Assembly: GCF_963675165.1 (NCBI RefSeq)
Contig: NC_087385.1
Coordinates: 780,001 to 844,000 of the forward strand
Direction of reading: 5' to 3'
Length of the DNA: 64,000 bases
Origin: Halichondria panicea
Lineage: Eukaryota; Porifera; Demospongiae; Suberitida; Halichondriidae
The position numbers were made by a program, and so were the translations under genes. Of this stretch, positions 3,244 through 60,524 are shown piece after piece. The notes beneath the pieces are model-generated. The model ran no database searches. It saw only the letters and a list, made by a program, of their open reading frames with translations, and had not been told where the DNA came from. Numbering within the stretch: position 1 is the first letter of the stretch; the number at the start of each line of letters is the position of its first letter.

Positions 3244-6200
3244 ATGGATGGTCCAGTTGAACCATCACCTCGTTGGGGTCAATTCTCTGCAGTTGACGGA
3301 CGCCATTACATGTGGAGGGGGACTGGTCCAGGACTAAGGGGGTCTAACATCATTGCTGTGTATGATCCAAGCACTGAGCTGTGGAGCCTCTTGCCCACCA
3401 CTGGACCTCTACCCCCTGGAGAGTTGGGTGGTTACTCTGTTTGTGTAGGTCGTTGCCTGTACACTATTGGTGGTGGTGATGGGTCTTCTTACTTCAATGA
3501 CATGAGCAAGCTTAATCTGGACACTCTCCAGTGGACCAACATTCAAACCTCTGGTAGTCAACCTATGAAAAAGGCTTACTGTGGACTTGTCCGTGTGAAT
3601 GAGAGAACTCTGTGCTGCTTTGGAGGAGGAGGTATTGAGGGCACCACACAACCAGGATCAACATTCACCAAGACTAGACTTTGTTTTTTCTTTGACACAC
3701 AAAATGGTAACTTTTGTCAATGTGCACATTCGCTGTATGTTTTCATTGCATACACTTATAGGGTATCTAGCTACTGGTGGGCGGAGTCCCACCCTCACTC
3801 ACATAGGAAACCATGTTCACTTTCATATCAATCAATGTTATAAGGATGATGTAACATTGTACCATTCTCTAAATTGCCCCACCCCCACTTCCAGGTGTCT
3901 GGTCGTCCCCTGAGCTCAGAGGAGAGAGACCTCCTCCCTGTAGTAACTTCACCTTCACCATGGTGGACCAGAACAGGGCAGTCCTCTTTGGAGGGTACCA
4001 ATCTGGCCGTGGTGGGGTCAATGAAGTCTACCTATTAGATTTCAGGACCATGGTGAGTTGGAATTAGTACTGCCACATTGAAATGCACAATACTGTGTGT
4101 TCACTGTGTGTAGGAGGTCACTAAGGTGAAGCCAGTACAGGGAGAGCCATGGCCAGTGGGTAGGGCAGGCCATGCTGCCTGTTGTCTCAACTATGGACAG
4201 GACCACCCTCAACTACTGGTGTACGGAGGACTGGGTAATGGCAGCAAGGCACTGGGGGACATGTGGACACTTAATGTTGACGCTGTCAAGTGGACAGAGG
4301 TGAGTCTTGTCTTATTATGAACTGTTAGTGTACGTGTAATAAATGGACGTAATAAAGAGATACGAGACGTTCATTTACAAGAGTAAATAACTTTGAAGTC
4401 TAGGAGGATGTTAAATACTTGTGCTATGTACACACACCTTTACTGTATTATATCACGTTGTCAAGGTTACAAGCGTGTAATAAAAGTCATACAGTCCCTT
4501 CCGTACACGGTCGCGTAGCCTCGAGGCATAATTTGGTAAAGGGTCACTGTAATATAAAACACATAGCCTTGAGATTCCTCGTGTTGTAATGTTATATTTA
4601 TTTCATACAGTACATGGATTATCTGATGATCTGTTCAGAATACACAGTACTACTGTACACTCAACATTTATTTATCAGAGCATTATTTTTATTTTATGCC
4701 TCCAGGTGACACCTCCTGAGTCAATGACACCACGTTTCCTCCACTCCATCACTGCCACCAGTCTGGGACCAGGACTCACTGAGGTCCTCGTGTTTGGAGG
4801 CCTGTCGGAAGGAGATCCCATTGCTGAGACCACCATACTGAGATTTGGTGAGCAGCTACTAGTACATGTAGCCATGGCAACTATTTTTTGATAGACAAGT
4901 ACACACAATACATGTGTCAATGACTCTGAATGCATTATACTGTTACATTTGTTCCTTAATCCCCCCTACAGAGTTGACTGGACCCTCAGCGTCTGTTGCT
5001 GGACCCTCGGCTGGGAAGTGGGCTCTCGTGGATGTGGCCCACAACGACACTAGAGGCTCCGCCCAGCGACTGAGTGAGAAGAGGATCAGACAAGCAACTG
5101 CTCGTGCCTCATCAGTCAGTGAGACCAGCGACCACTCCTCTCAAGACCAGGTGAGGGCTCTGGAACAACAGTTACAAGCAGCAGAGCAGAGAGAGCACGA
5201 CACTCAACGTCACCACCAACTACAGTTGCAAGAGAAGGATCGTGAATTCGCTACACAAGCTAGAGAATTGATCGAGGCCAACCGTCGTCATGGAGATACG
5301 GAGGAAAGAGCACAGCTGGCAGAGCAAAGAGAGCAAGCTACACAATTACTTTTACAAGTGAAAGATCGAGATTTGGCTGAGGCCAACAGAAGAGAAGCTG
5401 ACCTGTCTGCTCGAATCACAGCTCTAGAGAGGGAGTTAGAAGGCAAGACGAAAGAGTTGGCAGCACACAACACAGAGGTGTGGAGGATTCCGGCCAACAG
5501 AGTGATCACGATGAGAACGATTGGCACTGGAGGATGGGGGGAGGTGCTGGAGGGAACAGTGAGCGTGGCCGTTAAGCGACTCTTTGCTGCCATTGTCAAC
5601 CCACGCAATCTGGAGAGACTCCAGAGAGAAATGATGCTCTTGGCTGAAGTACGACACCCCAACCTGGTGCAGTTCATTGGGGCAGTGTTTGACCAATCCC
5701 CTCCTCTCATCATCACCGAGCTTCTGGACATGAATCTTCGACAAGCGTATGAAGAGAATGAACTGGACCCAGGAAACCGCCTCTCGATCTTCATGGACAT
5801 TGCCCTAGCTCTGAACTACCTGCACCAGCGCTACGATCCCATCATCCACCGTGATGTGAGTGCTCCCAACGTCCTCCTCCAGCGAATGCCCAACCACCAG
5901 TGGAAGGGGAAGGTCTCTGACCTGGGCTCAGCCAACTTCCTGCAGCATGCTCATACGATGGGAGAGGGGGCCATAATCTACTCCCCTCCTGAAGTCATCC
6001 CTCAACCGCTTGTACGACCTCCTCCACAAACTGTCAAGATTGACGTGTACAGCTACGGCATTGTGTTGGCTGAAGTGACTGCCAGTCGATTTCCGAGTCA
6101 AGACAATTTCCCTGAGATGTTTGAGAGAATCAAGAGAGAGCGTCCTGCAGTGTACGAGCTGATACTCGGCTGTATTGAGAGAGAGCCCAGCCATCGACCC

Positions 6201-6248
6201 AGCATGGCACAGGTGATGGTGGAACTGAACAAAATAGCACCCTTTTAA
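3244..6248 (+). CDS. Kelch-coiled coil-kinase protein K1 (type I kinase)
   Basis: Five coding exons join in consistent phase: 3,241-3,706, 3,895-4,052, 4,114-4,299, 4,706-4,847 and 4,972-6,248, giving about 741 residues. Residues 1-315 hold about six kelch blades, with Gly-Gly doublets such as LYTIGG, LCCFGG, AVLFGG, LLVYGG and LVFGG each followed by a Trp or aromatic strand. Residues about 375-485 are a Gln/Glu/Arg-rich coiled coil. Residues about 490-735 are a protein kinase: glycine loop GTGGWGE, VAVKRL lysine, HRDVSAPNVLL catalytic loop, DLG in place of DFG, SPPE in place of APE, and a final RPSMAQVM. The start is the first ATG of the kelch exon, because the upstream ATG in the leader exon is out of frame. 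A cytoplasmic signalling receptor or scaffold kinase of the TKL-like group is my inference. I see no signal peptide or membrane segment. Confidence 0.85.
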
Positions 6249-6725: not shown

Positions 6726-6730
<5 letters not shown>

Positions 6731-6790: not shown

Positions 6791-6793
<3 letters not shown>

Positions 6794-10903: not shown

Positions 10904-10906
10904 GTA

Positions 10907-12073
10907 ATGGATGCTCCAGTTGAACCATCACCTCGGTTAGGTCAATTCTCTGCAGTTGACGGACGCCATTACATGTGGAGGGGTTATGGTCCAGGACTGA
11001 GGGGGTCTAACATCATTGCTGTGTATGATCCAAGCACTGAGCTGTGGAGCCTCTTGCCCACCACTGGACCTCTACCCCCTGGAGAGCGGGGTGGTTGCTC
11101 TGTTTGTGTAGGTCGTTGCCTGTACACCTTTGGTGGTTGTGATGGGTCTTCTTACTTCAATGACATGAGCAAGCTTGATCTGGACACTCTCCAGTGGACC
11201 AAAGTTCAAACCTCTGGTAGTCAACCTATGAAAAAGGCTTTATGTGGACTTGTCCGTGTGAATTAATGAGAGAACTCTGTGCTGCTTTGGAGGAGAAGGT
11301 ATTGGCACCACACAACCAGGATCAACATTCAACAAGACGGGACACTCTGATGGAAGGGGATGGACAAACGAGTTTCATTTCTTTGACACACAAAATGGTA
11401 AATTTTTGTCAACGCATACACTTATAGGGTATCTAGCTACTGGTGGGCGGAGTCCCACCCTCACTCACATAGGAAACCATGTTCACTTTCATATCAATCA
11501 ATGTTATAAGGAGGATGTAACATTGTACCATTCTCTAAATTGCCCCACCCCCACTTCCAGGTATCTGGTCGTCCCCTGAGCTCAGAGGAGAGAGACCTCC
11601 TCCCTGTAGTGCCTTCACCTTCACCATGGTGGACCAGCACAGGGCAGTCCTCTTTGGAGGGTACCAATCTAGCCGTAGTAAAGTCTACCTATTCGATTTT
11701 AGGACCATGGTGAGTTGGAATTAGTACTGCCACATTGAAATGCACAATACTGTGTGTTCACTGTGTGTAGGAGGTCACTAAGGTGAAGCCAGTACAGGGA
11801 GAGCCATGGCCAGTGGGGAGAGATAATCATGCTGCCTGTTGTCTCAACTATGGCCAGGACCACCCTCAACTACTGGTGTACGGAGGAGTGGATAATAGCA
11901 GCAAGGCACTGGGGGACATGTGGATACTGGATGTAGACACTGTCAAGTGGGCAGAGGTGAGTCTTGTCTTATTATGAACTGTTAGTGTACGTGTAATAAA
12001 TGGACGTAATAAAGAGATACGAGACGTTCATTATGCCTCGAGGCGTAGCCGCACGAGGGATACGGTAAAGCTG

Positions 12074-12104
<31 letters not shown>

Positions 12105-14816
12105 CTGTTCCAGCTGTAACTGCTCAACGGTTGCAATGCGACGAAAACTAACAGCTTCTATAGGCTTCTAGCCACGTTCTCTTGGATTTTGATTCGTGGA
12201 TTAGCAAACTAAAGCTTCTTTCTCGAGTTATGGCTAGTTTGACTCACATTGAAGGCTGTTGCAGTCTCTTCAGAATCTTTCATAGCATCATCTGTCCGCA
12301 CATACTTTCTATTCAACATATGAGTTAGCCTTGCACTAAAGCGCTAGCTTTTTGTTAGCTACAAGACTCAGAAAATATCTGTTAAAACAGCTAGCTAGCA
12401 GTAGCCATTGATCTGTTTGGACACACCCTTTATTATTCCTGTGGATGTAATGCGCATGCGCGCTCATTCCCCACGTGTGAGAAACCAAGATCCAGATCCA
12501 GATCCTCCTGGCAGAATCATCTTTGTCTTGAGGGCCTGGTAAGCCACAAAACACTACCATATAACAATATAGATAACAATATGCATGTACACAGGTCTGA
12601 TATTATATACACTGAACTACAGATCCTGGAAGAATCAATTTTCTTCTTTCTTGAGGTCCTGGTAAGCCACATAATACAATAAATAACAACAATAGATGCA
12701 TATAAATAAGTCTTTTCTTCTCAGTGACTTTATATAGGTAAGCTAACTTTAATATAAAATTCATTATAGAAACTAATATAACACTCTAATACTTTTGAGC
12801 GAAAGCAAAAACATGGCGAGAGGCATTAGCACAGCGCCAGCTTGAACACTAGTTTACAAGAGTAAATAACTTTGAAGTCTAGGAGGATGTTAAATATGTG
12901 TGCTATGTACACACACCTTTACTGTATTATATCACGTTGTCAAGGTTACAAGCGTGTAATAAAAGTCATACAGTCCCTTCCGTACACGGTCGCGTAGCCT
13001 CGAAGCATAATTTGGTAAAGGGTCACTGTAATATAAAACACATAGCCTTGAGATTCCTCGTGTTGTAATGTTATATTTATTTCATACAGTACATGGATTA
13101 TCTGATGATCTGTTCAGAATACACAGTACTACTGTACACTCAACATTTATTTATCAGAGCATTATTTTTATTTTGTGCCTCCAGGTGACACCTCCTGAGT
13201 CAATGACACCACGTTACAGCCACTCCATCACTGCCACCAGTCTGGGACCAGGACTCACTGAGGTCCTCGTGTTTGGAGGCAAGTGGGAGTGGTGGGGAGA
13301 TGCCATTGCTAGGACCACCATACTGAGATTTGGTGAGCAGCTACTAGTACATGTAGCCATGGCAACTATTGTCTGATAGACAAGTACACACAATACATGT
13401 GTCAATGACTCTGAATGCATATACTGTTACATTTGTTCCTTAATGCCCCCACAGAGTTGACTGGACCCTCAGCGTCTGTTGCTGGACCCTCGGCTGGGAA
13501 GTGGGCTCTCGTGGATGTGGCCCACAACGACACTAGAGGCTCCGCCCAGCAACTGAGTGAGAAGAGGATCAGACAAGCAACTGCTCGTGCCTCATCAGTC
13601 AGTGAGACCAGCGACCACTCCTCTCAAGACCGGGTGAGGGCTCTGGAACAACAGTTACGAGCAGCAGAGCAGAGAGAGCACGACACTCAACGTCACCACC
13701 AACTACAGTTGCAAGAGAAGGATCATGAATTAACTGAGGCCAACCGTCGTCATGGAGATGCAGAAAGACAACTCAGAGAATCTCAACAAATTTTCCAAGA
13801 AGAATTGGCCGAAGCCAACCGTCGCCTTAGAGATACCGAGGAAAGAGTACAACTGGCAGAGCAAAGAGAGCAAGCTACTCAAAATCGCTCTGAACAATTG
13901 TTGCAAGAAAAAGATCGGATAATGGCGATAAAAGAACGAGAATCATACGAGGCCAACCATCGTCGTGTTGATACTGAGAGGAGAGTCCAAGAGCTGATTG
14001 CTGAAAATGAAACCAAAGGTCAGAGAGGAGAGCCCAGCTGGCAGAGGAGCGAGCAGAGGGTCTGGAGACTCAGTGGGTGGTCCATCGCGAGGAAATCACA
14101 ATGACAGAGAGACAGCTCGGTGGGGGAGGATGGGGGGTCGTCAAAGTGGCCAAGTTCCGAGAAATCGAGGTGGCAGCCAAGACACTGTACGAGCAGCTCA
14201 GATCCGACTATTATCGACACGTGTTTATTCGTGAGATGAACATGGCGGCTCGTCTGCGACACCCACACCTGGTCCAGTTCATAGGAGCCACGCTGGAGGG
14301 GGAGATGATCATCCTGACAGAGCTCATGGCCACCAGTCTGAGGAGGGTGCTGGAGGGAGGTCGTATCTCACGTGAACACATCCTCTCCATCTCTGTGCAG
14401 GTCTGTCAAGCCCTCAACTATCTCCACCTCATGCAGCCAGACCCAGTGATCCATCGTGACATCAGCAGTGCAAACATCCTCCTCTACCCGATGGCCGCTG
14501 GAGTGCAAAGGTTACCGACTACGGCTCCGTGAACACCCTGCGAGCATTGGCGACAGAGAATCCTGGTAATCCAGTGTATGCTGCCCCTGAGGCAAGAACC
14601 CCTTCCCTCCAGTCAACCAAGATGGACATGTTCAGTTTGGGGGTGCTCCTGATCGAGATGTGTTCTGGCCAGTTTCCGAGTGATGACGGACGTGAGTGCT
14701 TACTCCTCACCATCCAAGACCGTCAGTTCTCTGGCATCATCAGTCGCTGTATCCATAGAGACAGAGACAATCGACCAACCGCTCGACAATTGTTGAATGA
14801 GCTGCTACATTTATAG
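10907..14816 (+). pseudogene. Kelch-kinase K2, broken by three frameshifts
   Basis: Same exon plan as K1, with a type II kinase like K3 and K4. Lesions against the intact copies: four extra bases near 11,263 in the first kelch exon give an immediate TAA (11,264-11,266); a 16-base deletion near 14,008 in the coiled coil; and a 7-base deletion near 14,487 just after HRDISSANILL. The kinase motifs remain legible across frames: GGGGWGVV, AAKTLY, HRDISSANILL, YAAPEA, DMFSLGVLLIEM. An element of about 820 bp has also landed in the third intron. The kelch hypervariable codons are still unlike those of every other copy, so the loss of function is probably recent. Confidence 0.85.
12033..12852. mobile_element. 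MITE-related insertion in a K2 intron
   Basis: In K1, K3, K4 and K5 the intron reads straight from GACGTTCA (GACATTCA in K5) into TTTACAA. In K2 about 820 bp interrupts this point. The insertion starts TATGCCTCGAGGCG and contains the CGAGGGATACGGTA, TTCTATAGGCTTCTAG and CTCGAGTTA blocks of the 8,703-9,233 family. It carries (GT)n at 12,078-12,103 and an AGGCATTAG stretch near its right end. The empty sites in the paralogues make this a clear insertion. Its exact ends are uncertain by a few bases. Confidence 0.65.
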
Positions 14817-18116: not shown

Positions 18117-18166
<50 letters not shown>

Positions 18167-21100: not shown

Positions 21101-22104
21101 CTTATTTTCGAGAATGTGCTTATGCACCAAGTTTATACTGTGCTGACAGCAATTCTTGGCCCCTATATTTACATAACATACACCCTGCACTCTTAGACTA
21201 ATGAACATTGGGCTGTTTATGAACTCGTCTCCCACCCACACACCACACACACACACAGCTGTGTCTCCAGTACTACAAGAGTGAGTTTGTTGAGCTGGCG
21301 TGTCAGTGTCCAGCTGTCATCTGCTGTCGGTGCTCGCCCACTCACAAGGCACAGGTCGTCAGTCTCCTACGAAACCACACCCACAAACTCGTGTGTGCGG
21401 TTGGGGACGGGGGTAACGATGTAAGTATGATCCAGGCGGCTAATGTTGGAGTGGGGATTGTGGGGAAGGAGGGGAAGCAAGCATCTCTAGCAGCTGACTT
21501 CTCTGTCACTCAGTTCAGCCACATCAGTCGATTATTAGTCTGGCATGGGAGGAACAGGTGAGCCCCTGTAATTAATGAGAAAGCTACACTATGTATACAT
21601 GTGCATACGATCATACAAGTGAACAAATTATGTGTTTAGTAGTACTTTTCATAAGTTGTCATGATTATGTTTTTTGTTTGTTTTTTCTGTAGTTACAAGA
21701 GGTCGGCTGCTCTAAGTCAGTTTGTGATGCACAGAGGTCTCATAATCTCCGTCATGCAGGTGAGTGTAGTGTGTGTGGGGTGGTGAGTGTAGTGTGTGTG
21801 TAGGGTGGTGAGTGTAGTGTGTGTGGGTGGGGTGGTGTGTTGTGTAACTAGATGTGATTCACTGATGCCTCTCCCTTACAGGCTGTGTTTTCTTCTATAT
21901 TCTACTTTGCAGCTGTAGCCCTCTATGAAGGAGTGCTCATGGTCGGGTGAGTTGGGATATTACCTATACATTGTAAAATTTTCTGTTACCCAAATTCATC
22001 ATTTTTAATACCATGAGTATGGTAGCTACATGTAAGCTGTAACTGTTTATAGGGAGCTATGTATATATTAGCTAGGGTACATGAACCCAACACCCTACCC
22101 ACCC

Positions 22105-22158
<54 letters not shown>

Positions 22159-23381: not shown

Positions 23382-23413
<32 letters not shown>

Positions 23414-24192: not shown

Positions 24193-24375
24193 CTACAGGG
24201 AAATTAAGGAAACAGTAAAACAGATTACGTGTTAGCAAAGATATCTCAATGAAGTGAAGACATGGATGACTATTATGGTAGGCATGTCATGCTGTGACGG
24301 TAATTAACAGTGTACAGTAATACCTACATGTACATCTTAATCAGTTTTAAGGCAACATAATGTAGTTTCCATTCT

Positions 24376-35525: not shown

Positions 35526-38500
35526 ATGGATGCTCCAGTTGAACCATCACCTCGTGCGGGTCAATTCTCTGCAGTTGACGGACACCATTACATGTGGAGG
35601 GGGGCTGGTCCAGGACGAGGGTCTAACATCATTGCTGTGTATGATCCAAGCACTGAGCTGTGGAGCCTCTTGCCCACCACTGGACCTCTACCCCCTGGAG
35701 ATTATGGTGGTTGCTCTGTTTGTGTAGGTCGTTGCCTGTACACCTTTGGTGGCCGTGATGAGTCTTCTTACTTCAATGACATGAGCAAGCTTGATCTGGA
35801 CACTCTCCAGTGGACCAAAGTTCAAACCTCTGGTAGTCAGCCTATGAAAAAGGCTTTCTGTGGACTTGTCCGTGTGAATGAGAGAACTCTGTGCTGCTTT
35901 GGAGGAGAAGGTATTGAGGGCACCACACAACCAGGATCAACATTCACCAAGACTAGACTGTCTGATGGAAGGGGATGGACAAACGAGTTCCATTTTTTTG
36001 ACACACAAAATGGTAACTTTTATCAATGTGTGCACATTCGCTGTATGTTTTCATTGCATACACTTATAGGGTATCTAGCTACTGGTGGGCGGAGTCCCAC
36101 CCTCACTCACATAGGAAACCATGTTCACTTTCATATCAATCAATGTTATAAGGATGATGTAACATTGTACCATTCTCTAAATTGCCCCACCCCCACTTCC
36201 AGGTGTCTGGTCGTCCCCTGAGCTCATAGGAGAGAGACTTCCTCCCTGTGCTGACTTCACCTTCACCATGATGGACCAGCACAGGGCAGTCCTCTTTGGA
36301 GGGTACCACCCTATCCATGGTGAGCTCAATGATGTCTACTTCCTTGACTTCAGGACCATGGTGAGTTGGAATTAGTACTGCCACATTGAAATGCACAATA
36401 CTGTGTGTTCACTGTGTGTAGGAGGTCACTAAGGTGAAGCCAGTACAGGGAGAGCCATGGCCAGTGGAGAGGTCACTCCATGCTGCCTGTTGTCTCAACT
36501 ATGGCCAGGACCACCCTCAACTACTGGTGTACGGAGGACTGGATAATGGTAACAAGACACTGGGGGACATGTGGATACTGGATGTTGACACTGGCAAGTG
36601 GGTAGAGGTAAGTCTTGTCTTATTATGAACTGTTAGTGTACGTGTAATAAATGGACGTAATAAAGAGATACGAGATGTTCATTTACAAGAGTAAATAACT
36701 TTGAAGTCTAGGAGGGTGTTAAATACTTGTGCTATGTACACACACCTTTACTGTATTATATCACGTTGTCAAGGTTACAAGCGTGTAATAAAAGTCATAC
36801 AGTCCCTTCCGTACACGGTCGCATAGCCTCGAGGCATAATTTGGTAAAGGGTCACTGTAATATAAAACACATAGCCTTGAGATTCCTCGTGTTGTAATGT
36901 TATATTTATTTCATACAGTACATGGATTATCTGATGATCTGTTCAGAATACACAGTACTACTGTACACTCAACATTTATTTATCAGAGCATTATTTTTTG
37001 TGCCTCCAGGTGACACCTCCTGAGTCAATGACACCACGTTCCTACCACTCCATCACTGCCACCAGTCTGGGACCAGGACTCACTGAGGTCCTCGTGTTTG
37101 GAGGCAAGCATAATACTTTGTTTGGATATGCCACTGCTGAGACCACCATACTGAGATTTGGTGAGCAGCTACTAGTACATGTAGCCATGGCAACTATTGT
37201 CTGATAGACAAGTACACACAATACATGTGTCAATGACTCTGAATGCATATACTGTTACATTTGTTCCTTAATCCCCCCTACAGAGTTGACTGGACCCTCA
37301 GCGTTTGTTGCTGGACCCTCGGCTGAGAAGTGGGCTCTCGTGGATGTGGCCCACAACGACACTAGAGGCTCCGCCCAGCGACTGAGGGAGAAGAGGATCA
37401 GACAAGCAACTGCTCGTGCCTCATCAGTCAGTGAGACCAGCGACCACTCCTCTCAAGACCGGGTGAGGGCTCTGGAACAACAGTTACGAGCAGCAGAGCA
37501 GAGAGAGCACGACACTCAACGTCACCACCAACTACAGTTGCAAGAGAAGGATCATGAAATAACTGAGGCCAACCGTCGTCATGGAGATGCAGAAAGACAA
37601 CTCAGAGAAGCTCAACAAATTTTCCAAGAAGAATTGGCCGAGGCCAACCGTCGCCTTAGAGATGCCGAGGAAAGAGCACAACTGGCAGAGCAAAGAGAGC
37701 AAGCTACTCAAAATCGCTTTGAACTATTGTTGCAAGAAAAAGATGGGATAATGGCGATAAAAGAACGAGAATCATACGAGGCCAACCATCGTCGTGTTGA
37801 TGCTGAGAGAAGAGTCCAGGAACTGATTGCTGAAAATGAACGACTTCAAGAAGACCTCCAAAGGTCAGACAGGAGAGCCCAGCTGGCAGAGGAGCGAGCA
37901 GAGGGTCTGGAAACTCAGTGGGTGGTCCATCGCGAGGAGATCACAATGACAGAGAGACAGCTCGGTGGGGGAGGATGGGGGGTCGTCAAAGTGGCCAAGT
38001 TTCGAGAAATCGAGGTGGCAGCCAAGACACTGTACGAGCAGCTCAGATCCGACTATTACCGACACGTGTTTATTCGTGAGATGAACATGGCGGCTCGTCT
38101 GCGACACCCACACCTGGTCCAGTTCATAGGAGCCACGCTGGAGGGGGAGATGATCATCCTGACAGAGCTCATGGCCACCAGTCTGAGGAGGGTGCTGGAG
38201 GGAGGTCGTATCTCACGTGAACACATCCTCTCCATCTCTGTGCAGGTCTGTCAAGCCCTCAACTATCTCCACCTCATGCAGCCAGACCCAGTGATCCATC
38301 GTGACATCAGCAGTGCAAACATCCTCCTCAATCCTCTACCCAATGGCCGCTGGAGGGCAAAGGTCACCGACTACGGCTCCGTGAACACACAGCGAATGTT
38401 AAACACGATGAACCCGGGGAGTCCTGTATACGCTGCCCCTGAGGCCGGTAACCCGTCCCTCCAATCAACCAAGATGGACATGTTCAGTCTAGGGGTGCTC

Positions 38501-38668
38501 CTGATCGAGATGTGTTCTGGCCAGTTTCCGAGTGATGACGGGCGTGAGCGCTTACTCCTCACCATCCAAGACCGTCAGTTCTCTGACATTATCAGTCGCT
38601 GTATCCATAGAGACAGAGACAATCGACCAACCGCTCGACAACTGTTGAATGAACTACGAGATAGATAA
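35526..38668 (+). CDS. Kelch-coiled coil-kinase protein K3 (type II kinase)
   Basis: Exons 35,526-36,012, 36,203-36,360, 36,422-36,607, 37,010-37,160 and 37,284-38,668 join without a phase break to give about 788 residues, the longest of the family. Six kelch blades (residues 1-326) are followed by a long coiled coil (about 386-541) made of repeated EANRR..DAE / LAEQREQATQ units. The kinase (about 548-788) has GGGGWGVV, VAAKTLY, HRDISSANILL, DYGS in place of DFG, YAAPEAG, DMFSLGVLLIEM and RPTARQLL. Catalytic Lys, HRD Asp and Asn are present, so activity is plausible. It ends NELRDR, unlike the NELLHL of K2 and K4. Its own promoter block is split by the KDZ transposon. Confidence 0.88.
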
Positions 38669-44226: not shown

Positions 44227-47200
44227 ATGTTGAAAGCTCGGCTGCACTCCTTTTTTGGTCGTCCACCAGTTGAACCATTAGTTGAACCACCACCTCGTTA
44301 TGGTCAATTCTCTGCAGTTGACGGACACCATTACCTGTGGAGGGGGGTTGGTCCAGGACGAGGGTCTAACATCATTGCTGTGTATGATCCAAGCACTGAG
44401 CTGTGGAGCCTCTTGCCCACCACTGGACCTCTACCCCCTGGACCTCTACCCCCTGGAGAGGCTGATGGTTGCTCTGTTTGTGTAGGTCGTTGCCTGTACA
44501 CCTTTGGTGGTTGGGATGGGTCTTCTTACGTCAATGACATGAGCAGGCTTGATCTGGACACTCTCCAGTGGACCAAAGTTCAAACCTCTGGTAGTCAGCC
44601 TATGAAAAAGGCTTACTGTGGGCTTGTCTGTGTGAATGAGAGAACTCTGTGCTGCTTTGGAGGAGTCGGTATTGAGGGCACCACACAACCAGGATCAACA
44701 TGCACCGGTGGACGCACAAACGAGTTTCATTTCTTTGACACACAAAATGGTAACTTTTGTCAATGTGACATTCGGTGTATTTGCATACACTTATAGGGTA
44801 TCTAGCTACTGGTGGGCGGAGTCCCACCCTCACTCACATAGGAAACCATGTTCACTTTCATATCAATCAATGTTATAAGGATGATGTAACATTGTACCAT
44901 TCTCTAAATTTCTCCACCCCCACTTCCAGGTGTCTGGTCGTCCCCTGAGCTGAGAGGAGAGAGACCTCCTCCCTGTAGTGCCTTCACCTTCATCATGGTG
45001 GACCAGCACAGGGCAGTCCTCTTTGGAGGGTGGCAACTTGGCCGTGGTAGGCTCAATGAAGTCTACCTCTTCGATTTTAGGACACTGGTGAGTTGGAATT
45101 AGTACTGCCACATTGAAATGCACAATACTGTGTGTTCACTGTGTGTAGGAGGTCACTAAGGTGAAGCCAGTACAGGGAGAGCCATGGCCAGTGGAGAGGT
45201 CACTCCATGCTGCCTGTTGTCTCAACTATGGCGACCACCCTCAACTACTGGTGTACGGAGGACTGGATGATGACATCAAGACACTGGGGGACATGTGGAT
45301 ACTGGATGTTGACGCTTTCAAGTGGACAGAGGTGAGTCTTGTCTTATTATGAACTGTTAGTGTACGTGTAATAAATGGACGTAATAAGAGACGTTCATTT
45401 ACAAGAGTAAATAATTTTGAAGTCTAGGAGGATGTTAAATACTTGTGCTATGTACACACACCTTTACTGTATTATATCACGTTGTCAAGGTTACAAGCGT
45501 GTAATAAAAGTCATACAGTCCCTTCCGTACACGGTCACGTAGCCTCGAGGCATAATTTGGTAAAGGGTCACTGTAATATAAAACACATAGCCTTGAGATT
45601 CCTCGTGTTGTAATGTTATATTTATTTCATACAGTACATGGATTATCTGATGATCTGTTCAGAATACACAGTACTACTGTACACTCAACATTTATTTATC
45701 AGAGCATTATTTTTTGTGCCTCCAGGTGACACCTCCTGAGTCAATGACACCACGTCTCTACCACTCCATCACTGCCACCAGTCTGGGACCAGGACTCACT
45801 GAGGTCCTCGTGTTTGGAGGCCGTCGAGAGCTGTGGGGAGATCCCATTGCTGAGACCACCATACTGAGATTTGGTGAGCAGCTACTAGTACATGTAGCCA
45901 TGGCAACTATTGTCTGATAGACAAGTACACACAATACATGTGTCAATGACTCTGAATGCATATTCTGTTACATTTGTTCCTTAATTCCCCCTACAGAGTT
46001 GACTGGACCCTCAGCGTCTGTCTCGGCTGGGAAGTGGGCTCTCGTGGATGTGGCCCACAACGACACTAGAGGCTCCGCCCAGCGACTGGGTGAGAAGAGG
46101 ATCAGACAAGCAACTGCTCGTGCCTCATCAGTCAGTGAGACCAGCGACCACTCCTCTCAAGACCGGGTGAGGGCTCTGGAACAACAGTTACGAGCAGCAG
46201 AGCAGAGAGAGCACGACACTCAACGTCACCACCAACTACAGTTGCAAGAGAAAGATCGAGAATTAGCTACACAAGCTAGAGAATTGACCGAGGCCAACCG
46301 TCGTCATGGAGATGCGGAGGAAAGAGCACAGCTGGCAGAGCAAAGAGAGCAAGCTACACAATTACTTTTACAAGTGAAAGATCGTGAATTGGCTGAGGCT
46401 AACCATCGCCATGGAGATGCTGAGACTAGAATCCAAGAACTTCAAGAAGACCTCCAAAGGTCAGACAGGAGAGCCCAGCTGGCAGAGGAGCGAGCAGAGG
46501 GTCTGGAGACTCAGTGGGTGGTCCATCGCGAGGAGATCACAATGACAGAGAGACAGCTCGGTGGGGGAGGATGGGGGGTCGTCAAAGTGGCCAAGTTCCG
46601 AGGAATCGAGGTGGCAGCCAAGACACTGTACGAGCAGCTCAGATCCGACTATTACCGACACGTGTTTATTCGTGAGATGAACATGGCGGCTCGTCTGCGA
46701 CACCCACACCTGGTCCAGTTCATAGGAGCCACGCTGGAGGGGGAGATGATCATCCTGACAGAGCTCATGGCCACCAGTCTGAGGAGGGTGCTGGAGGGAG
46801 GTCGTATCTCACGTGAACACATCCTCTCCATCTCTGTGCAGGTCTGTCAAGCCCTCAACTATCTCCACCTCATGCAGCCAGACCCAGTGATCCATCGTGA
46901 CATCAGCAGTGCAAACATCCTCCTCAACCCTCTACCCGATGGCCGCTGGAGTGCAAAGGTCACCGACTACGGCTCCGTGAACACACAGCGAATGTTGAAC
47001 ACAATGAACCCAGGGAGTCCTGTATACGCTGCCCCTGAGGCCGGTAACCCGTCCCTCCAGTCAACCAAGATGGACATGTTCAGTCTGGGGGTGCTCCTGA
47101 TCGAGATGTGTTCTGGCCAGTTTCCGAGTGATGACGGACGTGAGCGCTTACTCCTCACCATCCAAGACCGTCAGTTCTCTGACATCATCAGTCGCTGTAT

Positions 47201-47264
47201 CCATAGAGACAGAGACAATCGACCAACCGCTCGACAACTGTTGAATGAACTGCTACATTTATAG
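44227..47264 (+). CDS. Kelch-coiled coil-kinase protein K4 (type II kinase)
   Basis: Exons 44,227-44,749, 44,930-45,087, 45,149-45,331, 45,726-45,873 and 45,997-47,264 give about 759 residues with no phase break. The N-terminus differs from all other copies: MLKARLHSFFGRPP replaces the usual MD(A/G)PVEPS, after acceptor CTCCTGCAG. The sequence upstream is not the usual promoter block but the 3' flank of ZFAND1. A 15-base tandem duplication repeats GPLPP in blade 1. One codon is missing in blade 5. The coiled coil is shorter than in K3. The kinase is almost identical to that of K3 (HRDISSANILL, DYGS, YAAPEAG) and ends NELLHL. Confidence 0.88.
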
Positions 47265-51600: not shown

Positions 51601-51764
51601 GTGAAGGTAGGTGGTTAGTTTACATGTACAATGCACAGTGTAACAGACCGCTTATGCTGTGTGCCTACATCTTGTGTACCAGCCTGTACAGTTTGTTTAG
51701 TATGGTTTTATTGTGTATACGTATACAATGTACTGCTGCTTATGTTTGGGTTGAACTCTGTTCT

Positions 51765-52355
51765 TTGCCCCCTGTATACAGTGTTCCTACCCCCCACACA
51801 CACTACCCCCTGTATACAGTGTTCCTACCCCCCACACACACTACCCCCTGTATACAGGTTTCCTACCCCCCACACACACTACCCCCTGTATAGAGTGTTC
51901 CTACCACCCACACACACTACCCCCTGTATACAGTGTTCCTACCCCCCACACACACTACCCCCTGTATACAGTGTTCCTACCCCCCACACACACTACCCCC
52001 TGTATAGAGTGTTCCTACACCCCACACACACTACCCCCTGTATAGAGTGTTCCTACCCCCCACACACACTACCCCCTGTATAGAGTGTTCCTACACCCCA
52101 CACACACTACCCCCTGTATAGAGTGTTCCTACCCCCCACACACACTACCCCCTGTATAGAGTGTTCCTACCACCCACACACACTACCCCCTGTATACAGT
52201 GTTCATACCCCCACACACACTACCCCCTGTATAGAGTGTTCCTACCCCCCACACACACTACCCCCTGTATACAGTGTTCCTACCCCCCACACACACTACC
52301 CCCTGTATAGAGTGTTCCTACCCCCCACACACACTACCCCCTGTATAGAGTGTTG
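51765..52355 (+). repeat. Minisatellite of 16 units built from a 3' splice site (F2)
   Basis: About sixteen 37-39 bp units of CCCCCTGTATA(G/C)AGTGTT followed by CCTACCCCCCACACACACTA. The final unit is the functional-looking acceptor TGTATAG|AGTGTTGAGAG at about 52,350, so each unit carries a decoy acceptor with its C-rich tract. Confidence 0.9.
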
Positions 52356-54700
52356 AGAGTGGTGAGATAGTGTTCTACATGAAGGGTGCAGACACTGTCA
52401 TGGCCTCTATCTATAGTGCAGTACAACGACTGGCTGGATGAAGAAGTACGTGAGAACACAGAGACAGACATTGAGTGTTTATAACTGAGTTACGAGTGTG
52501 TCCTTTGAAAGGCCATCTAATGATCAGTGATTGCTTTCTGGTCGAACAAGCACAGGCTATTACCAAAATGGGTCTGTTTAATGGCTACTAACCCATTCTT
52601 CTCTCTCCCCATTAGTGTGGTAACATGGCGAGGGAGGGACTGCGTACTCTAGTGGTGGGGAAGAGGGTGCTCACTGAAGATCAGTACGCCAGCTTTGAGG
52701 TACGTGTACAAATGATCTTACATGTACATGTATGTAGCTACAAAGCTAACAGCACAGCTGACCATTAAGAGAGCTTTGTTATAGTGTGAGTGTTCAGTAG
52801 CTTGCTTTGAGAGGGATGAAATTAGTAGTACCCAAACTTGCACATTTTTACGGCAGTGTGTAACGTAGCTGCATGGATTGTGTGTCAGTGTGGTATACTA
52901 CCTCCCTACATACACTCCAGACTCGGTACAAGCAGGCCAAACTGAGTGTGACTGATCGGGCCTCCCAGGTGGCGGCAGTTGTGGGGGGACTGGAGGAGAA
53001 CTTGGAGCTCCTCTGTATCACTGGAGTGGAGGACCAGCTGCAGGTGATCTCGAGCTTTGCATTGACATTTTCTGCACATTAATTCCGACCTTGATACATT
53101 TACTGTAGTACTTCAACCTCTGAGTTCAAAATAATGTACATGTACTCCGATCCATTGCAGACTGATGTCAGGCCCACACTGGAGCTGCTCAAGAATGCTG
53201 GTATCAAGGTGAGCCATATCTACATGCCTTGGGGCAGGTCTCTAGATTGAGTAGTCTTCTGTGATGCTTCATTTTTGTTGATGTTTCTGTAGAGATAGTA
53301 CCTGTGTGTATATTCTCCCTTTTTAGTGCCTCGATCAAGCATTAATAATAGTTCAAACCACGTAGTGTTGTCATGACGTAGAAGTGAATGGATATCACAC
53401 TGTGTACAGGTGTGGATGTTGACTGGGGACAAGTTGGAGACAGCCACTAGTATTGGACGTAGCTCAAAGCTCATCTCTAAGACACAGACTCTCTTCACCT
53501 TCAAACAAGTAAGTCAGTTCTCTGCCTGGTCATGTGATGACATGAACCCCCTCCCCCTGTGTCAGGTGGGCAGCCGGAGTGAGGCTCACACTGAGCTCAA
53601 CAACTGGAGGAAGAAGAACGACTGTGCTCTCATAATAGCAGGGGACTCACTCGAGGTATGCACTGTACTTTGTAGGGAAACTTATAATTATAGAAGATCG
53701 ACTTATTTTTGAGAATGTGCCTATGCACCAAGTTTATACTGTGCTGACAGCAATTCTTGGCCCCTATATTTACATAACATACACCCTGCACTCTTAGACT
53801 AATGAACATTGGGCGTTTATGAACTCGTCTCCCACCCACACACCACACACACACAGCTGTGTCTCCAGTACTACGAGAGTGAGTTTGTTGAGCTGGCGTG
53901 TCAGTGTCCAGCTGTCATCTGCTGTCGGTGCTCGCCCACTCACAAGGCACAGGTCGTCAGTCTCCTACGAAACCACACCCACAAGCCCGTGTGTGCGGTG
54001 GGGGACGGGGGTAACGATGTGAGCATGATCCAGGCGGCTAATGTTGGAGTGGGGATTGTGGGGAAGGAGGGGAAGCAAGCATCTCTAGCAGCTGACTTCT
54101 CTGTCACTCAGTTCAGCCACATCAGTCGATTGTTAGTCTGGCATGGGAGGAACAGGTGAGTGGCAATGGTTCGATTATGTGCGTTCTGTATTCTGAACAT
54201 CATGCGAGTGAATGGTTTATTTTTTCTTACAAAGTTGTGATTGGCCTATCGTCTAATTCTTATGGTCTATTAATTAAATAAGTATTTTGTTTTTGTAGTT
54301 ACAAGAGGTCGGCTGCTCTGAGTCAGTTTGTGATGCACAGAGGTCTCATAATCTCCGTTATGCAGGTGAGTGGGTGTGTGTGGAGTGGTGTGGGTGGGGT
54401 GGTTGGTGTGTGTCTAGTCATGTGATACACTGATGCCTCTCCCTTACAGGCTGTGTTTTCTTCTATATTCTACTTTGCAGCTGTAGCCCTCTATAAAGGA
54501 GTACTCATGGTCGGGTGAGTTGCTTTAAGTTTTGAAATTAGAATTTGGTGTGACCCAAATTCATCATTTTTAGTACAGTGATTTTTATGGTAGCTACGTA
54601 CATGTACGTGCACACTTTGATTGTCTGTAACTGTTAAGGGAGCTACATGTAGTACTGTATACACAGAGTACATGAACCCAACACCCTACCCACCCCCTCA

Positions 54701-54739
<39 letters not shown>

Positions 54740-55009
54740 ACTCCACGATCTACACCATGTTCCCTGTATTCTCACTGGCTCTGGATGAAGACGTACATTG
54801 CTCTCATGTACATGTACCCTGTACTTTACCAGGAGCTGATGAAGGGACGATCTCTCACACTCAAAACATTCCTCATCTGGGTCCTCATCTCCATCTATCA
54901 AGGTTAACCACTTGGACTCTTTAAAGCTAGTGAATATTGACCACTTGTACACCTGTAGGTGCTTGTAAAAAGCCCACTTAATTGTTTATTTGCTTAATTT
55001 AACCTTGCT

Positions 55010-55380
55010 TCTAGCTGTACGTCTTTAAAACAGCCGTAACTTTAGTATCGTTGATCCAATGTTAAAAATATTATGATTTTCTGAAAGCTTAGAAAAACAC
55101 CTTTTAAATGATGTGTTTAAATCCAAAATTCAGGCCGGGCCATAATTTGTCATTTTTCGGCTTTGGTCCATGGGCATCCATGGTCCAACCAAATTGGCAA
55201 ATTGTTTTTTTTCTCAAATATGAACTTTGATGGTACCATTTGAAAGGTCTCCTTCTAAGCTTTCATAAAACCCTAAAATCGTTGAAATTCGATCCACGGA
55301 ATTCAAGTTATGGCAGCTAAAAGCGTCCCTGAACTGTTAATAAAATAATGGTGGTACGTTGTACATCTTTCAACAGCCAT
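55010..55380. repeat. Foldback-type repeat in F2 intron
   Basis: Counterpart of 22,440-22,800, lacking the short (AT)n segment in its middle. Confidence 0.5.
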
Positions 55381-56456
55381 AACCTTAGTACCAACAGTAA
55401 GCTTCCTACAGTATTCTTGCCCCATTTACACGTTCACAGAACTCTCTCTGTCATAGACACACCTACCAACACCCACTCCCCCACACACCACACCCCACAT
55501 ACACACACACACAGGTGGTGTGATCATGCTGGTGGGATTCCTTCTCTTTGAGTCGCAGTTCATCCACGTTGTGTCCATCATGTTCACGGCCCTCGTGCTC
55601 ACAGAGCTACTTATGGTGGCACTCAAGATACGAACATGGCACTTCCTGATGGTCCTGGCCGAGGTCGTCTCTGTCGTCATTTATATCCTCTCTCTCTTTG
55701 TCCTCAAGGATTATTTTGGTGAGAGTCGTTAATACGTACGCCTGTAATTCTAGCAACTGTGTGAGTGGAAACATTCTCAGTGACTGTTACAAATTAATTA
55801 CTGATTGCCTGAGGCATAATTATCAGGAGCAGTTGGTAATCAAAAAAATACTGTAGTATCGTGGTGCTGATGGTATTTCATGTCAGTGCTTAGAAATTAT
55901 CAAACTTAATTCTGTGAGTTTTTGGCTAGCTAAAATCTACAATTATTGATATGTACTTACCCCCACCCCCCCCCCCACACACACACACACACACACACAA
56001 CACACTGTAGACTCCTCCTTCTTACTGACGTTTGGTTTTGTGTGGAAGACGCTGGCTGTGACTGGAGCAAGTTGCGTGCCACTGTTCATTGCCAAGTTCA
56101 TGCAGCGATGGTGTGCTCCCTCCAGCTACACCAAGCTACTCAAGAAGAACACCATGCTTAGAAACTGTTGCAAACTAACTTGCTAGTTTATGTATATATA
56201 CAGCTAGTGCAAATCAGTTTCTATCACATAATTTTTATTTTATCGATGCATGACCGACATTAATTCCTCATGAAGTAGAATTTTGTACCACTCTCTCAGC
56301 ACATATATACGAAAACATTTTGTTTCAAATTATTTTAAACAACAATAGTTAATTAATTTTGACATAATTATGGGACAATGAGAATTTTTATTCAATGATG
56401 GACCATTAATTTGAATAATACAACATACATACATACATGTACATACGTTTATAGTC

Positions 56457-56785
56457 TCAATTAATTGCTTGGAGTTCCCAGTCTCTGGTATATATATAGG
56501 CAGTCTCACACTCCAGACTCATCTCTGAGCCTCGTGTCAGCGATGGTCGTCTCGGTCCCCTACGATTGAGGAAATTACTGATGATTGATTCCGAGTCCTC
56601 CCCCGGCTCCACTCCCCTCACACTTCTACTGGGCCCGCCCACTCCACTGCGTCCTCCCACGCCTCGACTACTGCCAGTGTGGGTCCCAGCATTGAGTATA
56701 GCGTCCAATTGTCTCATCCTCTCCTCATTGCGACCAGCCATGCCGTCCACATCCAGGGTAGCTACAGAGAACTGGGACTGACCAC
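56457..56785 (-). CDS. Small unrecognised protein M2, duplicate of M1
   Basis: Minus-strand exon equivalent to 23,876-24,192, with acceptor CTGTAG above 56,785. Translation from the ATG at 56,741 gives MAGRNEERMRQLDAIL and the same Gly/Ser-rich and acidic parts. An 8-base TA-rich insertion near 56,490 shifts the last codons, so the tail reads AYIYTRDWELQAIN instead of AYQRLGTPSN. Whether that matters is unknown, since the family is not recognised. Confidence 0.45.
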
Positions 56786-56965
56786 CTACAGGGAAATTAA
56801 GGAAACAGTAAAACAGATTACGTGTTAGCAAAGATATCTCAATGAAGTGAAGACATGGATGACTATTATGGTAGGCATGTCATGCTGTGACGGTAATTAA
56901 CAGTGTACAGTAATACCTACATGTACATCTTAATCAGTTTTAAGGCAACATAATGTAGTTTCCAT

Positions 56966-57497
56966 TCTACACAATGATAAATACACACACTGTCATGAGC
57001 AATCTTTACACATTGTACGACATGCTCTGCAACTAGACTAGACCTAGACCTATAATATTGCCCATTGACAGGCCTATGGGTATAAGCTGTATGTGCAATA
57101 TTCCTAGTATTCCTAGTTACACTCACCTACTCCTGCAGCGCTAGACAACCTTCAGATCTCTACACCTCCTCCAGCTAGCCATTTTGGGAGTGCATGGGCT
57201 CTCCTCATAACCTTTGCAATAGTGGGGGCGTGGCTGGTATGCAAGATCAACAGAACTCCAACAACAATAGCAGCTCTCTGATATCTCTGAGGGAGTGTTC
57301 TACTGTCCATGACTTGTAAGTTGAAATGCTGTGTCTCATTGCTGCTATAGATATACAGAGTTCATGTAAGTCATGTGATGGTTGTTGATCTGGTTAGGTC
57401 CTATAGCTAGCATGCATAGTCTCAGTCCAGGCTCAACCAATGATTGTGTGTGTGTGTGTGATGGCATAAACACTGTCTCATGATCACTCCTGTGCAG
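56966..57497. promoter_or_regulatory. Head-to-head promoter region and leader exons of M2 and K5
   Basis: Uninterrupted form of the block split by the transposon at 24,685/35,266. It reads through GCAGCTCTCTGATATCTCTG at 57,270-57,290, the empty site. It has the leader ending ATGACTT|GTAAG near 57,317 and a short (GT)n at 57,446-57,460. Confidence 0.6.
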
Positions 57498-57500
57498 GTA

Positions 57501-60500
57501 ATGGATGCTCCAGTTGAACCATCACCTCGTCGGAGTCAATTCTCTGCGGTTGACGGACACCATTACTTGTGGAGGGGGGTTAGTCCAGGACCGAGGGGGT
57601 CTAACATCATTGCTGTGTATGATCCAAGCACTGAGCTGTGGAGCCTCTTGCCCACCACTGGACCTCTACCCCCTGGAGAGCATGGTGGTTGCTCTGTTTG
57701 TGTAGGTCGTTGCCTGTACACCTTTGGTGGTAAGGATGGGTCTTCTTACTTCAATGACATGAGCAAGCTTGATCTGGACACTCTCCAGTGGACCAAAGTT
57801 CAAACCTCTGGTAGTCAGCCTATGAAAAAGGCTTTCTGTGGACTTGTCCGTGTGAATGAGAGAACTCTGTGCTGCTTTGGAGGATTCGGTATTGAGGGCA
57901 CCACACAACCAGGATCAACATTCACCAAGACTGGTGGATACACAAACGAGTTCCATTTCTTTGACACGCAGAATGGTAACTTTTATCAATGTGCACATTC
58001 GCTGTATGTTTTCATTGCATACACTTATAGGGTATCTAGCTACTGGTGGGCGGAGTCCCACCCTCACTCACATAGGAAACCATGTTCACTTTCATATCAA
58101 TCAATGTTATAAGGATGATGTAACATTGTACCATTCTCTAAATTGCCCCACCCCCACTTCCAGGTGTCTGGTCGTCCCCTGAGCTCATAGGAGAGAGACC
58201 TCTTTCCTGTGACTTCACCTTCACCATGGTGGACCAGCACAGGGCAGTCCTCTTTGGAGGGTACCAACCTGGCCGTGGTGAGGTTAATGAAATCTACATT
58301 TTTGATTTCCAGACCATGGTGAGTTGGAATTAGTACTGCCACATTGAAATGCACAGTACTGTGTGTTCACTGTGTATAGGAGGTCACTAAGGTGAAGCCA
58401 GTACAGGGAGAGCCATGGCCAGTGGAGAGGTCATTCCATGCTGCCTGTTGTCTCAACTATGGCCAGGACCACCCTCAACTACTGGTGTACGGAGGACTGG
58501 GTAATAGCAGCAAGGCACTGGGGGACATGTGGATACTGGATGTAGACACTGTCCAGTGGACAGAGGTGAGTCTTGTCTTATTATGAACTGTTAGTGTACG
58601 TGTAGTAAATGGACGTAATAAAGAGATATGAGACATTCATTTACAACTTTGAAGTCTAGGGGATGTTAAATACTTGTGCTATGAACACACCTTTACTGTA
58701 TTATATCACGTTGTCAAGGTTACAAGCGTGTAATAAAAGTCATACAGTCCCTTCCGTACACGGTCGCGTAGCCTCGAGGCATAATTTGGTAAAGGGTCAC
58801 TGTAATATAAAACACATAGCCTTGAGACTCCTCGTGTTGTAATGTTATATTTATTTCATACAGTACATGGATTATCTGATGATCTGTTCAGAATACACAG
58901 TACTACTGTACACTCAACATTTATTTATCATTATTTTTTGTGCCTCCAGGTGACACCTCCTGAGTCAATGACACCACGTTACTACCACTCCATCACTGCC
59001 ACCAGTCTGGGACCAGAACTCACTGAGGTCCTCGTGTTTGGAGGCAAGCGGGAGAGCCTGGGAGATGCCATTGCTGAGTCCACCATACTGAGATTTGGTG
59101 AGCAGCTACTAGTACATGTAGCCATGGCAACTATTGTCTGATAGACAAGTACACACAATACATGTGTCAATGACTCTGAATGCATATACTGTTACATTTG
59201 TTCCTTAATCCCCCCTACAGAGTTGACTGGACCCTCAGCGTCTGTTGCTGGACCCTCGGCTGGGAGGTGGGCTCTCGTGGATGTAGCCCACAACGACACT
59301 AGAGGCTCCACCCAGCGACTGAGTGAGAAGAGGATCAGACAAGCAACTGCTCGTGCCTCATCAGTCAGTGAGACCAGCGACCACTCCTCTCAAGATCGGG
59401 TGAGGGCTCTGGAACAACAGTTACGAGCAGCAGAGCAGAGAGAGCACGACACTCAATGTCACCACCAACTACAGTTGCAAGAGAAGGATCGTGAATTAGC
59501 TTTAAAAGATTGTGAATTGACCAAAGCCAATCGTCGTCATGGAGATGCGGAGGAAAGAGCACAGCTGGCAGAGCAAAGAATGCAAGCTACACAATTACTT
59601 TTACAAGTGAAAGATCGAGAATTGGCTGAGGCCAACAGGAGAAAAGCTGACCTGTTTGCTCGAATCACAGCTCTAGAGAGGGAGTTAGAAGGCAAGACGA
59701 AAGAGTTGGCAGCACACAACACAGAGGTGTGGAGGATTCCGGCCAACAGAGTGATCATTGGCAGGAGAATTGGCAAAGGAGGGTGGGGGGAGGTGCTGGA
59801 GGGAACAGTGAGCGTGGCCGTCAAGCGACTACACGAAGAAATTACTCTCCCAATCTACATCGAGAAAATGGAGAGAGAAATGAATCTATTGGCTGAAGTG
59901 CGACACCCAAACCTTGTGCAATTCATTGGTGCTATTTTTGATGTGCCAAACCAAGCCCATCGATCCCCTCCTCTCATCATCACCGAGCTTCTGGACATGA
60001 ATCTCCGACAAGCGTACGAGAGGAATCAACTGGACCCAGGAAATCGTCTCTCGATCTTCATGGACATTGCCCTAGCTCTGAACTACCTGCACCAGCGCTA
60101 CGATCCCATCATCCACCGTGATGTGAGTGCTCCCAACGTCCTCCTCCAGCAAATGCCCAACCACCAGTGGAAGGGGAAGGTCTCTGACCTGGGCTCAGCC
60201 AACTTCCTGCAGCATGCTCATACGATGGGAGAGGGGGCCATAATCTACTCCCCTCCTGAAGCCATCCCTCAAGCCTTTGATCCTCTCACTCCACCTCTGA
60301 GACAGTCTGTCAAGATCGATGTGTACAGCTACGGCATTGTCCTCTGTGAGGTGACCGCTAGTCGATTCCCAAGTGCTGAACATTATCGAGACATGATTCT
60401 CCAAGTACAGAGGCAGCATCCTGCAGTGTACGAGCTGATACTCCACTGCACTAAGAGAGAGCCCAGCCATCGACCCAGCATGGCACAGGTGATGGTGGAA

Positions 60501-60524
60501 CTGAACAAAATAGCACCCTTTTAA
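57501..60524 (+). CDS. Kelch-coiled coil-kinase protein K5 (type I kinase)
   Basis: Exons 57,501-57,975, 58,164-58,318, 58,380-58,565, 58,950-59,097 and 59,221-60,524 give about 755 residues without a phase break. The kinase is of the K1 type: GKGGWGE, VAVKRL, LVQFIGAIF, HRDVSAPNVLL, DLGS, YSPPEA and a final LNKIAPF. Compared with K1 it has an insertion (VPNQAH) before SPPLIITELLD and a different stretch after SPPEAIPQ. These differences lie in kinase loops while the core is near-identical. The kelch loops differ from those of all other copies. Confidence 0.88.

Follow-up and report, generated by a model that had tools for sequence, protein, structure and literature searches.

Five genes of the sponge Halichondria panicea, here called K1 to K5, lie in the same orientation in a 64,000-nucleotide stretch of one contig (C9:780001-844000, NC_087385.1), which is referred to below as the window. 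They encode a six-bladed kelch propeller joined to a protein kinase. The blade positions that match the ligand contacts of KLHDC2, another kelch protein, are hypervariable between copies of these genes, whereas the kinase and the remaining parts of the propeller vary far less. Nonsynonymous changes are in excess at the predicted pocket codons. The genes thus combine a conserved scaffold with diversifying change on one face, as judged by counting methods, which is the pattern of a recognition receptor with a hypervariable propeller. They are probably a germline-encoded set of kelch sensor-kinases of the cytosol, in which diversifying selection acts at the ligand pocket, the scaffold is homogenised and the ligands are probably varied.

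Each gene consists of four kelch exons, which carry the six blades (three of them in the first exon), and a last exon that encodes, in order, the closing strand, a charged, coiled-coil-like stretch and the kinase. Six kelch motifs can be read across exons 1-5. The exon limits and splice sites of K1-K5 were set by eye from the sequence. Pfam Kelch_1 and PF24681 exceed their cut-off in the kelch open reading frames (ORFs) scanned, those of K1, K2, K3 and K5, and the kinases match PF07714 and PF00069. The Pfam scan found no NACHT or WD40 domain, but kelch and kinase instead. No BTB-BACK domain or cullin box was found among the eight exon ORFs scanned, possible upstream exons lying outside the scan. 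As far as the scanned exons show, the genes are not KLHL/KLHDC ubiquitin-ligase receptors; they end in a coiled coil followed by a kinase.

The five copies are not all intact. K2 is probably a pseudogene, because its exon-1 frame is broken after VRVN and its kinase is matched as two separate pieces that overlap. The N-terminus of K4 is unlike that of the other window copies, and K4 has an extra PLPPG. K1 is without part of one loop.

An initial annotation, made from the letters of the window alone, had given 3244 and 60524 as the limits of the array, and had listed the variable residues of K1-K5 blade by blade. Both coordinates are correct, the first being the ATG of K1 and the second the stop of the K5 kinase, and the listed residues agree with the translations in every blade. 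Its description of the kelch exons as almost base-for-base identical captures their high identity but is somewhat overstated, as the aligned part of exon 1 shows 89.4-93.5% identity between K5 and each of K1-K4. All of the listed sites are truly variable. The list is incomplete, however: the rest of the loops between strands b and c (b-c loops) of blades 4-6 varies too, as does the residue before TNEF (entropy 2.31, 32 copies).

The family extends far beyond the window. With the first kelch exon as query, 82 matches were found in the genome searched (131 Mb, 39 contigs). After removal of five weak matches to other kelch sequences (30-39% identity) and four second fragments, 73 copies remain by hand count. 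C9 holds 68 of them, a count that was repeated, and 62 of these fall within C9:0.04-1.34 Mb (from 42 kb). A kinase match follows at least 61 of the 68 C9 copies, at 8 kb or less, on the same strand and before the next copy; this is a lower bound, since kinase positions were taken from the best 150 matches to class B, one of the two kinase classes of the family.

Sequences were read for 61 of the 73 copies. Six were set aside for a stop within the first 130 residues; in one of these, C9_404216, the stop falls at the first, extrapolated codon, and the gene is not necessarily broken. Of the remaining 55 copies of exon 1, two are off C9. The other 53 hold 48 distinct pocket strings, and removal of five near-duplicates leaves 48 copies.

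Three C9 pairs (298976/327147, 307497/335668 and 318233/346175) lie about 28 kb apart and show no difference in the kelch codons and introns that were compared. They represent either a recent block duplication or an assembly artefact. Allelic or mis-joined copies could, in the same way, have swollen the repertoire as a whole. This is scarcely credible, given that the copies occupy separate positions along one 7 Mb contig and that the pattern persists after near-identical copies of exon 1 are collapsed from 53 to 48.

The variation is confined to a few places in the propeller. In exon 1, compared across the 48 non-redundant copies, most of each blade has low entropy, with leaps at residues 11-12, 27, 61, 78, 111-112 and 129. 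The same two spots per blade and the b-c loops are variable in exons 2-4, most weakly after the GG motif of blade 5. The limits of these exons follow their BLAST alignment with K5, which leaves a few flanking columns rough, and exon 2 of C9_43136, misread by frame, was kept in the exon-2 counts.

At least 2 bits of amino-acid entropy are reached by 20 of the 305 kelch columns. Two of these are the N-terminal residues 1-2, and 18 are assigned to one face by topology; none lies in the turns of the opposite face. Each of the 18 immediately precedes strand a, immediately follows strand b or belongs to a b-c loop. In antiparallel blades of four strands, strand a begins and strand b ends on one face, next to the channel, and the b-c loop lies there too. 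Mean entropy is 2.72 bits just after strand b, 2.17 just before strand a and 1.09 in the rest of the b-c loop. Means are 0.21-0.44 bits in all strands and 0.24 and 0.48 in the two turns of the opposite face; the analyst placed the strand limits according to the kelch motif. Overall, the variable face and the opposite-face turns compare as 2.35 to 0.34 bits. The suggestion of the initial annotation that the variable sites fall on loops of one face is supported: the most variable ones cluster there and not in the strands.

Eighteen predicted pocket codons were chosen from the sites of the initial annotation and from Keap1 contacts. Keap1 presumably contacts Nrf2 through the two equivalent positions of each blade. 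Mean entropy is 2.09 at these codons and 0.32 at the 286 others (23 genes; Mann-Whitney p 7e-13), a test that is not blind, because the positions were picked after the translations of the copies had been seen. The predicted pocket is enriched in Tyr (4.8x), Ala (3.6x) and Trp (2.5x); His and Ser are also favoured, and Thr, Pro and Met are nearly absent.

A known ligand pocket offers a further comparison. Among natural proteins of solved structure, KLHDC2 (PDB 6do3 and others) is closest to the spliced kelch region of K5 (E 1.7e-26, aligned over 10-308). Its reported degron-pocket contacts include Arg236, Arg241, Ser269, Tyr163, Trp191, Trp270 and Lys147 (PMC11377542). Lys147 aligns with K5 residue 112, Tyr163 with residue 129, and Ser269 and Trp270 with the two pocket residues of blade 5. 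Arg236 directly follows GG of blade 4, at a point where one residue is inserted in the alignment. The variable residue before TNEF corresponds to Trp191, and Arg241 falls in the variable blade-4 loop. The five contact columns of Lys147, Tyr163, Arg236, Ser269 and Trp270 have 1.8-3.0 bits (mean 2.62, against 0.59 for all columns; p 1.4e-4). The two proteins are alike in having a six-bladed kelch propeller with ligand contacts at corresponding blade positions. They differ in that the K genes end in a coiled coil and a kinase, and in that the contact positions vary between copies.

Change at the predicted pocket mostly replaces amino acids. The ratio of nonsynonymous to synonymous change (pN/pS), obtained by a counting method, is 2.0 at the 18 pocket codons and 0.73 elsewhere (27 genes), an excess of the kind that the initial annotation had named as support. 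Nucleotide divergence among 23 array genes reaches 34% in pocket and loops, compared with 4.0% at fourfold sites elsewhere and 2.5, 1.7 and 5.9% in the introns. These 23 were drawn from 38 four-exon genes by leaving out three genes located outside C9, three whose exon 1 is disrupted, four duplicates and five more (C9_393572 and C9_1304014, chosen by hand, and three distant C9 copies). Among 252 pairs, each with at least 400 intron bases, the 34 pairs closest by intron differ by 0.7% on average in the introns and by 5% in the remaining kelch codons. A general claim that introns are more conserved than exons is not made, in view of the pooled intron values above. A stretch of 388 bp upstream of the 38 genes shows 34% pairwise divergence, which is not interpreted, since these sequences are heterogeneous and align poorly.

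Variable loops are common among proteins and the family includes broken copies, so the variable sites could be unconstrained loops drifting neutrally in recently amplified, partly dead duplicates. Relaxed constraint alone is insufficient, because divergence at the pocket is far above that of introns and fourfold sites, and the turns of the opposite face are conserved. Neutral drift is accordingly very improbable.

The contrast is also found between copies that separated recently. Among exon pairs of recent origin, changes affect 17 of the 60 pocket codons (16 nonsynonymous, 1 synonymous) and 23 of the 929 others (13 and 10; Fisher p 6e-12). Each gene was used once per exon, although one pair recurs in all four exons. 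Nine of the 17 changed codons come from a single pair, C9_815526 (K3) and C9_266356, in which all nine exon-1 pocket codons differ, eight of them by replacement, against 5 of 132 others.

Several observations weigh against the reading of the family as a repertoire under diversifying selection. Seven C9 copies are without a kinase among the matches listed, a copy on C8 at 4999830 has no kinase match in about 7 kb downstream, and kelch exons are disrupted in at least 5 of the 61 copies read. Little variation is seen at two of the predicted pocket sites, namely residue 62 in blade 2 (0.96 bits) and the blade-5 site that follows GG (1.52 bits). An AlphaFold model of exon 1 (three blades, four window copies aligned) was too poor to use, with a mean pLDDT of 40.5; its strand order fits the motif but is given no weight, and the assignment of faces thus rests on motif, alignment and topology. 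The pN/pS values are pooled pairwise counts, uncorrected for saturation, relatedness or recombination, and the evidence as a whole is the sequence of one genome. Finally, silent change is itself raised at the pocket: pS is 0.26 there and 0.11 elsewhere, and pairs of codons for the same amino acid differ silently in 9.3% of cases against 4.6% elsewhere. Silent divergence has no clear gradient around the pocket (fourfold sites 4.2% within five codons, 3.9% further away). This silent excess without a gradient does not fit the simplest model of selection, and biased mutation or conversion could act in addition.

Such a bias could even be the main cause, if a targeted mutation or conversion mechanism acted on the pocket codons and selection were secondary. 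The sharp boundaries and the doubled silent difference inside pocket codons are consistent with this, as is the high frequency of codon pairs that differ by 2-3 bases (46% at the pocket, 5.3% elsewhere). Against it, third positions are far less diverse (0.29) than first and second positions (0.50 and 0.52), and Pro, Met and Thr are nearly excluded. Both features point to selection on amino acids, and the targeted mechanism is improbable as the leading explanation.

The scaffold around the pocket appears to be exchanged between genes. In a four-gamete test of informative sites, 323 of the 528 pairs show all four combinations; the 18 pocket codons were excluded from this test and other loop sites included, so that repeated mutation may add to the count. 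C9_307497 and C9_706422, for instance, have a nearly identical exon 4 and different exon-1 pockets.

Exchange is also suggested by the kinases, which fall into two classes, A and B, that are about 36% identical and occur behind the same kelch scaffold. Median kelch distances are.071 within A,.063 within B and.068 between them (20 A and 6 B genes). The nearest kelch neighbour carries the same kinase class in 17 of 26 genes, about the chance level for these class sizes. Kelch scaffolds do not group according to the class of their kinase. Divergence at fourfold sites is 13% in class A kinases (17 genes), 6.5% in class B (4 genes) and 4% in the kelch exons (23 genes); the lower silent divergence of the latter suggests that the sensor scaffold was homogenised more recently than the output domain.

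Among 31 kinases found, the VAxK lysine is present in 28, HRD in 31 and D(L/Y)G in 29, and three of the five misses fall in shortened matches. The family thus carries the catalytic Lys, HRD and DxG by which a eukaryotic protein kinase is predicted. The best PDB matches of class B, in a search at 1e-14, are TAK1-TAB1 (4l52, E 1.4e-24), CTR1 and MAP3K9 (MLK); class A has no PDB match at E <1e-24. By these PDB matches and the retained catalytic motifs, the kinases may be related to the TAK1/MLK/CTR1 (tyrosine-kinase-like, TKL) group. The K kinases are distant from those enzymes in sequence and, unlike them, joined to a kelch sensor. Large arrays of related kinases are found, among the matches listed, at C16:3.7-5.7 Mb (many frames of 700-760 amino acids), C3:0.1-0.63 Mb and C9:0.53-0.62 Mb.

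No transmembrane segment was found in the K5 model of 755 amino acids (highest 19-residue hydropathy mean 0.89), possible upstream exons lying outside the model. The K5 model is not that of a transmembrane receptor kinase, which has a signal peptide and a transmembrane segment. Since its first ATG is, in addition, directly 5' of blade 1, the protein is probably cytosolic. The initial annotation had proposed a diversified ligand surface linked to a kinase, perhaps for allorecognition or immunity. A diversified surface on a sensor-kinase is retained here, but the sensor is more likely to be cytosolic than to be an allorecognition receptor at the cell surface. Its observation is confirmed and the structural and evolutionary part of its interpretation is supported; the pattern is stronger than could have been known from the window.

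A cytosolic kelch protein may also bind self. The copies could have diversified for many endogenous partners, such as self substrates or degrons, as in animal kelch families, instead of foreign ligands. KLHL-type families are old and individually conserved. Recently separated K copies, by contrast, differ disproportionately at the pocket, a tempo that is unusual for stable self partners. KLHDC2 is itself a precedent for endogenous binding: it is described as a ubiquitin-ligase subunit that recognises a C-terminal diglycine degron (PMC12169847), which it binds in the equivalent pocket. On balance, diversification for endogenous partners is rather unlikely.

If the family is instead a diversified repertoire of sensor-kinases, it may work as follows. 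Gene conversion or unequal exchange would homogenise and shuffle the kelch exons, while selection would keep the pocket codons diverse. The central pocket of each copy would bind a different ligand, probably a peptide-like determinant. Binding would gather kinases through the coiled coil, and trans-phosphorylation could then start a TAK1/MLK-like signal. The ligands may be non-self (microbes, viruses, symbionts or allogeneic cells), which is the least certain step. The family may serve in immunity or allorecognition.

The nearest known principle is found in the HNWD (het-d/het-e) NLRs of Podospora anserina. Near-identical propeller repeats vary there at four codons, under diversifying selection and on a predicted interaction surface (PMC12222747). 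The kelch-kinases appear to share with them an intracellular beta-propeller sensor with diversified surface codons and a scaffold homogenised by recombination. The fungal propeller is WD40 and is joined to NACHT and HET, whereas here a kelch propeller is joined to a coiled coil and a kinase; homogeneity is among repeats within a gene there and among paralogues here. The kelch-kinases are not members of the HNWD family, as they have no NACHT and no WD40.

Another parallel is provided by the highly variable NLRs of plants, a germline receptor family in which intraspecies diversity is reported to mark predicted binding sites (PMC8226289). Those are NB-LRR receptors, however, and the variation there is between individuals. 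No kelch-kinase repertoire of this kind is described in the titles and abstract openings listed by searches of open-access papers. Kelch-motif genes, of this or other families, are reported among sponge transcripts lowered after exposure to microbial patterns (PMC6208332).

Table 1. Positions of the kelch-kinase genes and of the predicted pocket codons of K5 (window coordinates; entropy in bits)
Feature	Position	Strand	Remarks
K1 whole gene	3244..6248	+	3244 = ATG
K1 kelch exons	3244-3706, 3895-4052, 4114-4299, 4706-4847	+	splice sites by eye; Pfam kelch
K1 coiled coil and class A kinase exon	4972-6248	+	Pfam kinase
K2	10907..14804 (end approximate)	+	kelch exon starts 10907, 11561, 11771, 13185
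K2 class B kinase	broken pieces up to about 14804	+	
K3	35526..38668	+	kelch exon starts 35526, 36203, 36422, 37010
K3 coiled coil and class B kinase	stop at 38668	+	
K4	44278..47264	+	kelch match from ~44278 (start of the match); exon starts 44930, 45149, 45726
K4 coiled coil and class B kinase	stop at 47264	+	
K5	57501..60524	+	kelch exon starts 57501, 58164, 58380, 58950
K5 coiled coil and class A kinase	stop at 60524	+	
K5 blade 1 before strand a, residues 11-12	57531..57536	+	entropy 2.48 and 2.11, 48 copies
K5 blade 1 after strand b, residue 27	57579..57581	+	entropy 3.06
K5 blade 2 before strand a, residues 61-62	57681..57686	+	entropy 3.04 and 0.96
K5 blade 2 after GG, residue 78	57732..57734	+	entropy 3.34; 13 amino acids among 47 copies
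K5 blade 3 before strand a, residues 111-112	57831..57836	+	entropy 1.73 and 2.44; 112 = KLHDC2 Lys147
K5 blade 3 after GG, residue 129	57885..57887	+	entropy 2.99; aligned to KLHDC2 Tyr163
K5 blade 4 before strand a	58211..58213	+	entropy 2.65 (exon-2 column 28); K5 without a neighbouring residue present in others
K5 blade 4 after GG	58262..58264	+	entropy 2.88; KLHDC2 Arg236 within one residue
K5 blade 5 before strand a	58431..58436	+	entropy 1.82 and 2.99; KLHDC2 Ser269 and Trp270
K5 blade 5 after GG	58497..58499	+	entropy 1.52, lowest of six after-GG sites
K5 blade 6 before strand a	58980..58985	+	entropy 2.39 and 1.93
K5 blade 6 after GG	59046..59048	+	entropy 2.50; opens length-variable b-c loop

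Other elements lie between and beyond the five genes. Positions 17001-24500 and 49159-57093 are a duplicated block, with pieces 90-97% identical, and a weak match to a P4-ATPase C-terminal domain, below its cut-off, is found in it at 22765-23160. An ORF with a match to a Vts1-like domain (E 1.6e-11) is located between K3 and K4 on the minus strand, at 40530-41132. A run of CA/TG dinucleotides of about 390 bases occupies 61490-61880, where the open frames read His-Thr and Cys-Val. Neither the Rfam scan nor the tRNA scan found anything in the window.

A second kelch family, apparently larger, is present elsewhere in the genome. Among the best 150 matches listed, it has dozens of copies on both strands with uninterrupted frames of about 315 amino acids, at C1:11.0 and 15.5-17.36 Mb and also on C6 and C28 (L088, L089). 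One pair of copies, chosen for their equal scores and separated by 303 kb, shows a single amino-acid difference.

How specific recognition is achieved without antibodies in early-branching animals is an open question, and this family provides named residues and genes with which to approach it. The kelch-kinases may, tentatively, be regarded as an undescribed class of animal intracellular receptor for non-self, in which about 18 pocket positions and the loops are varied on a gene-converted scaffold, in about 73 copies and with two interchangeable kinase classes. The propeller would then serve much as a designed binding library does. If this is true, animals too would use the principle of the fungal WD40 NLRs, a homogenised propeller with diversified contact codons, in a fold and with an output domain that are both new to it.

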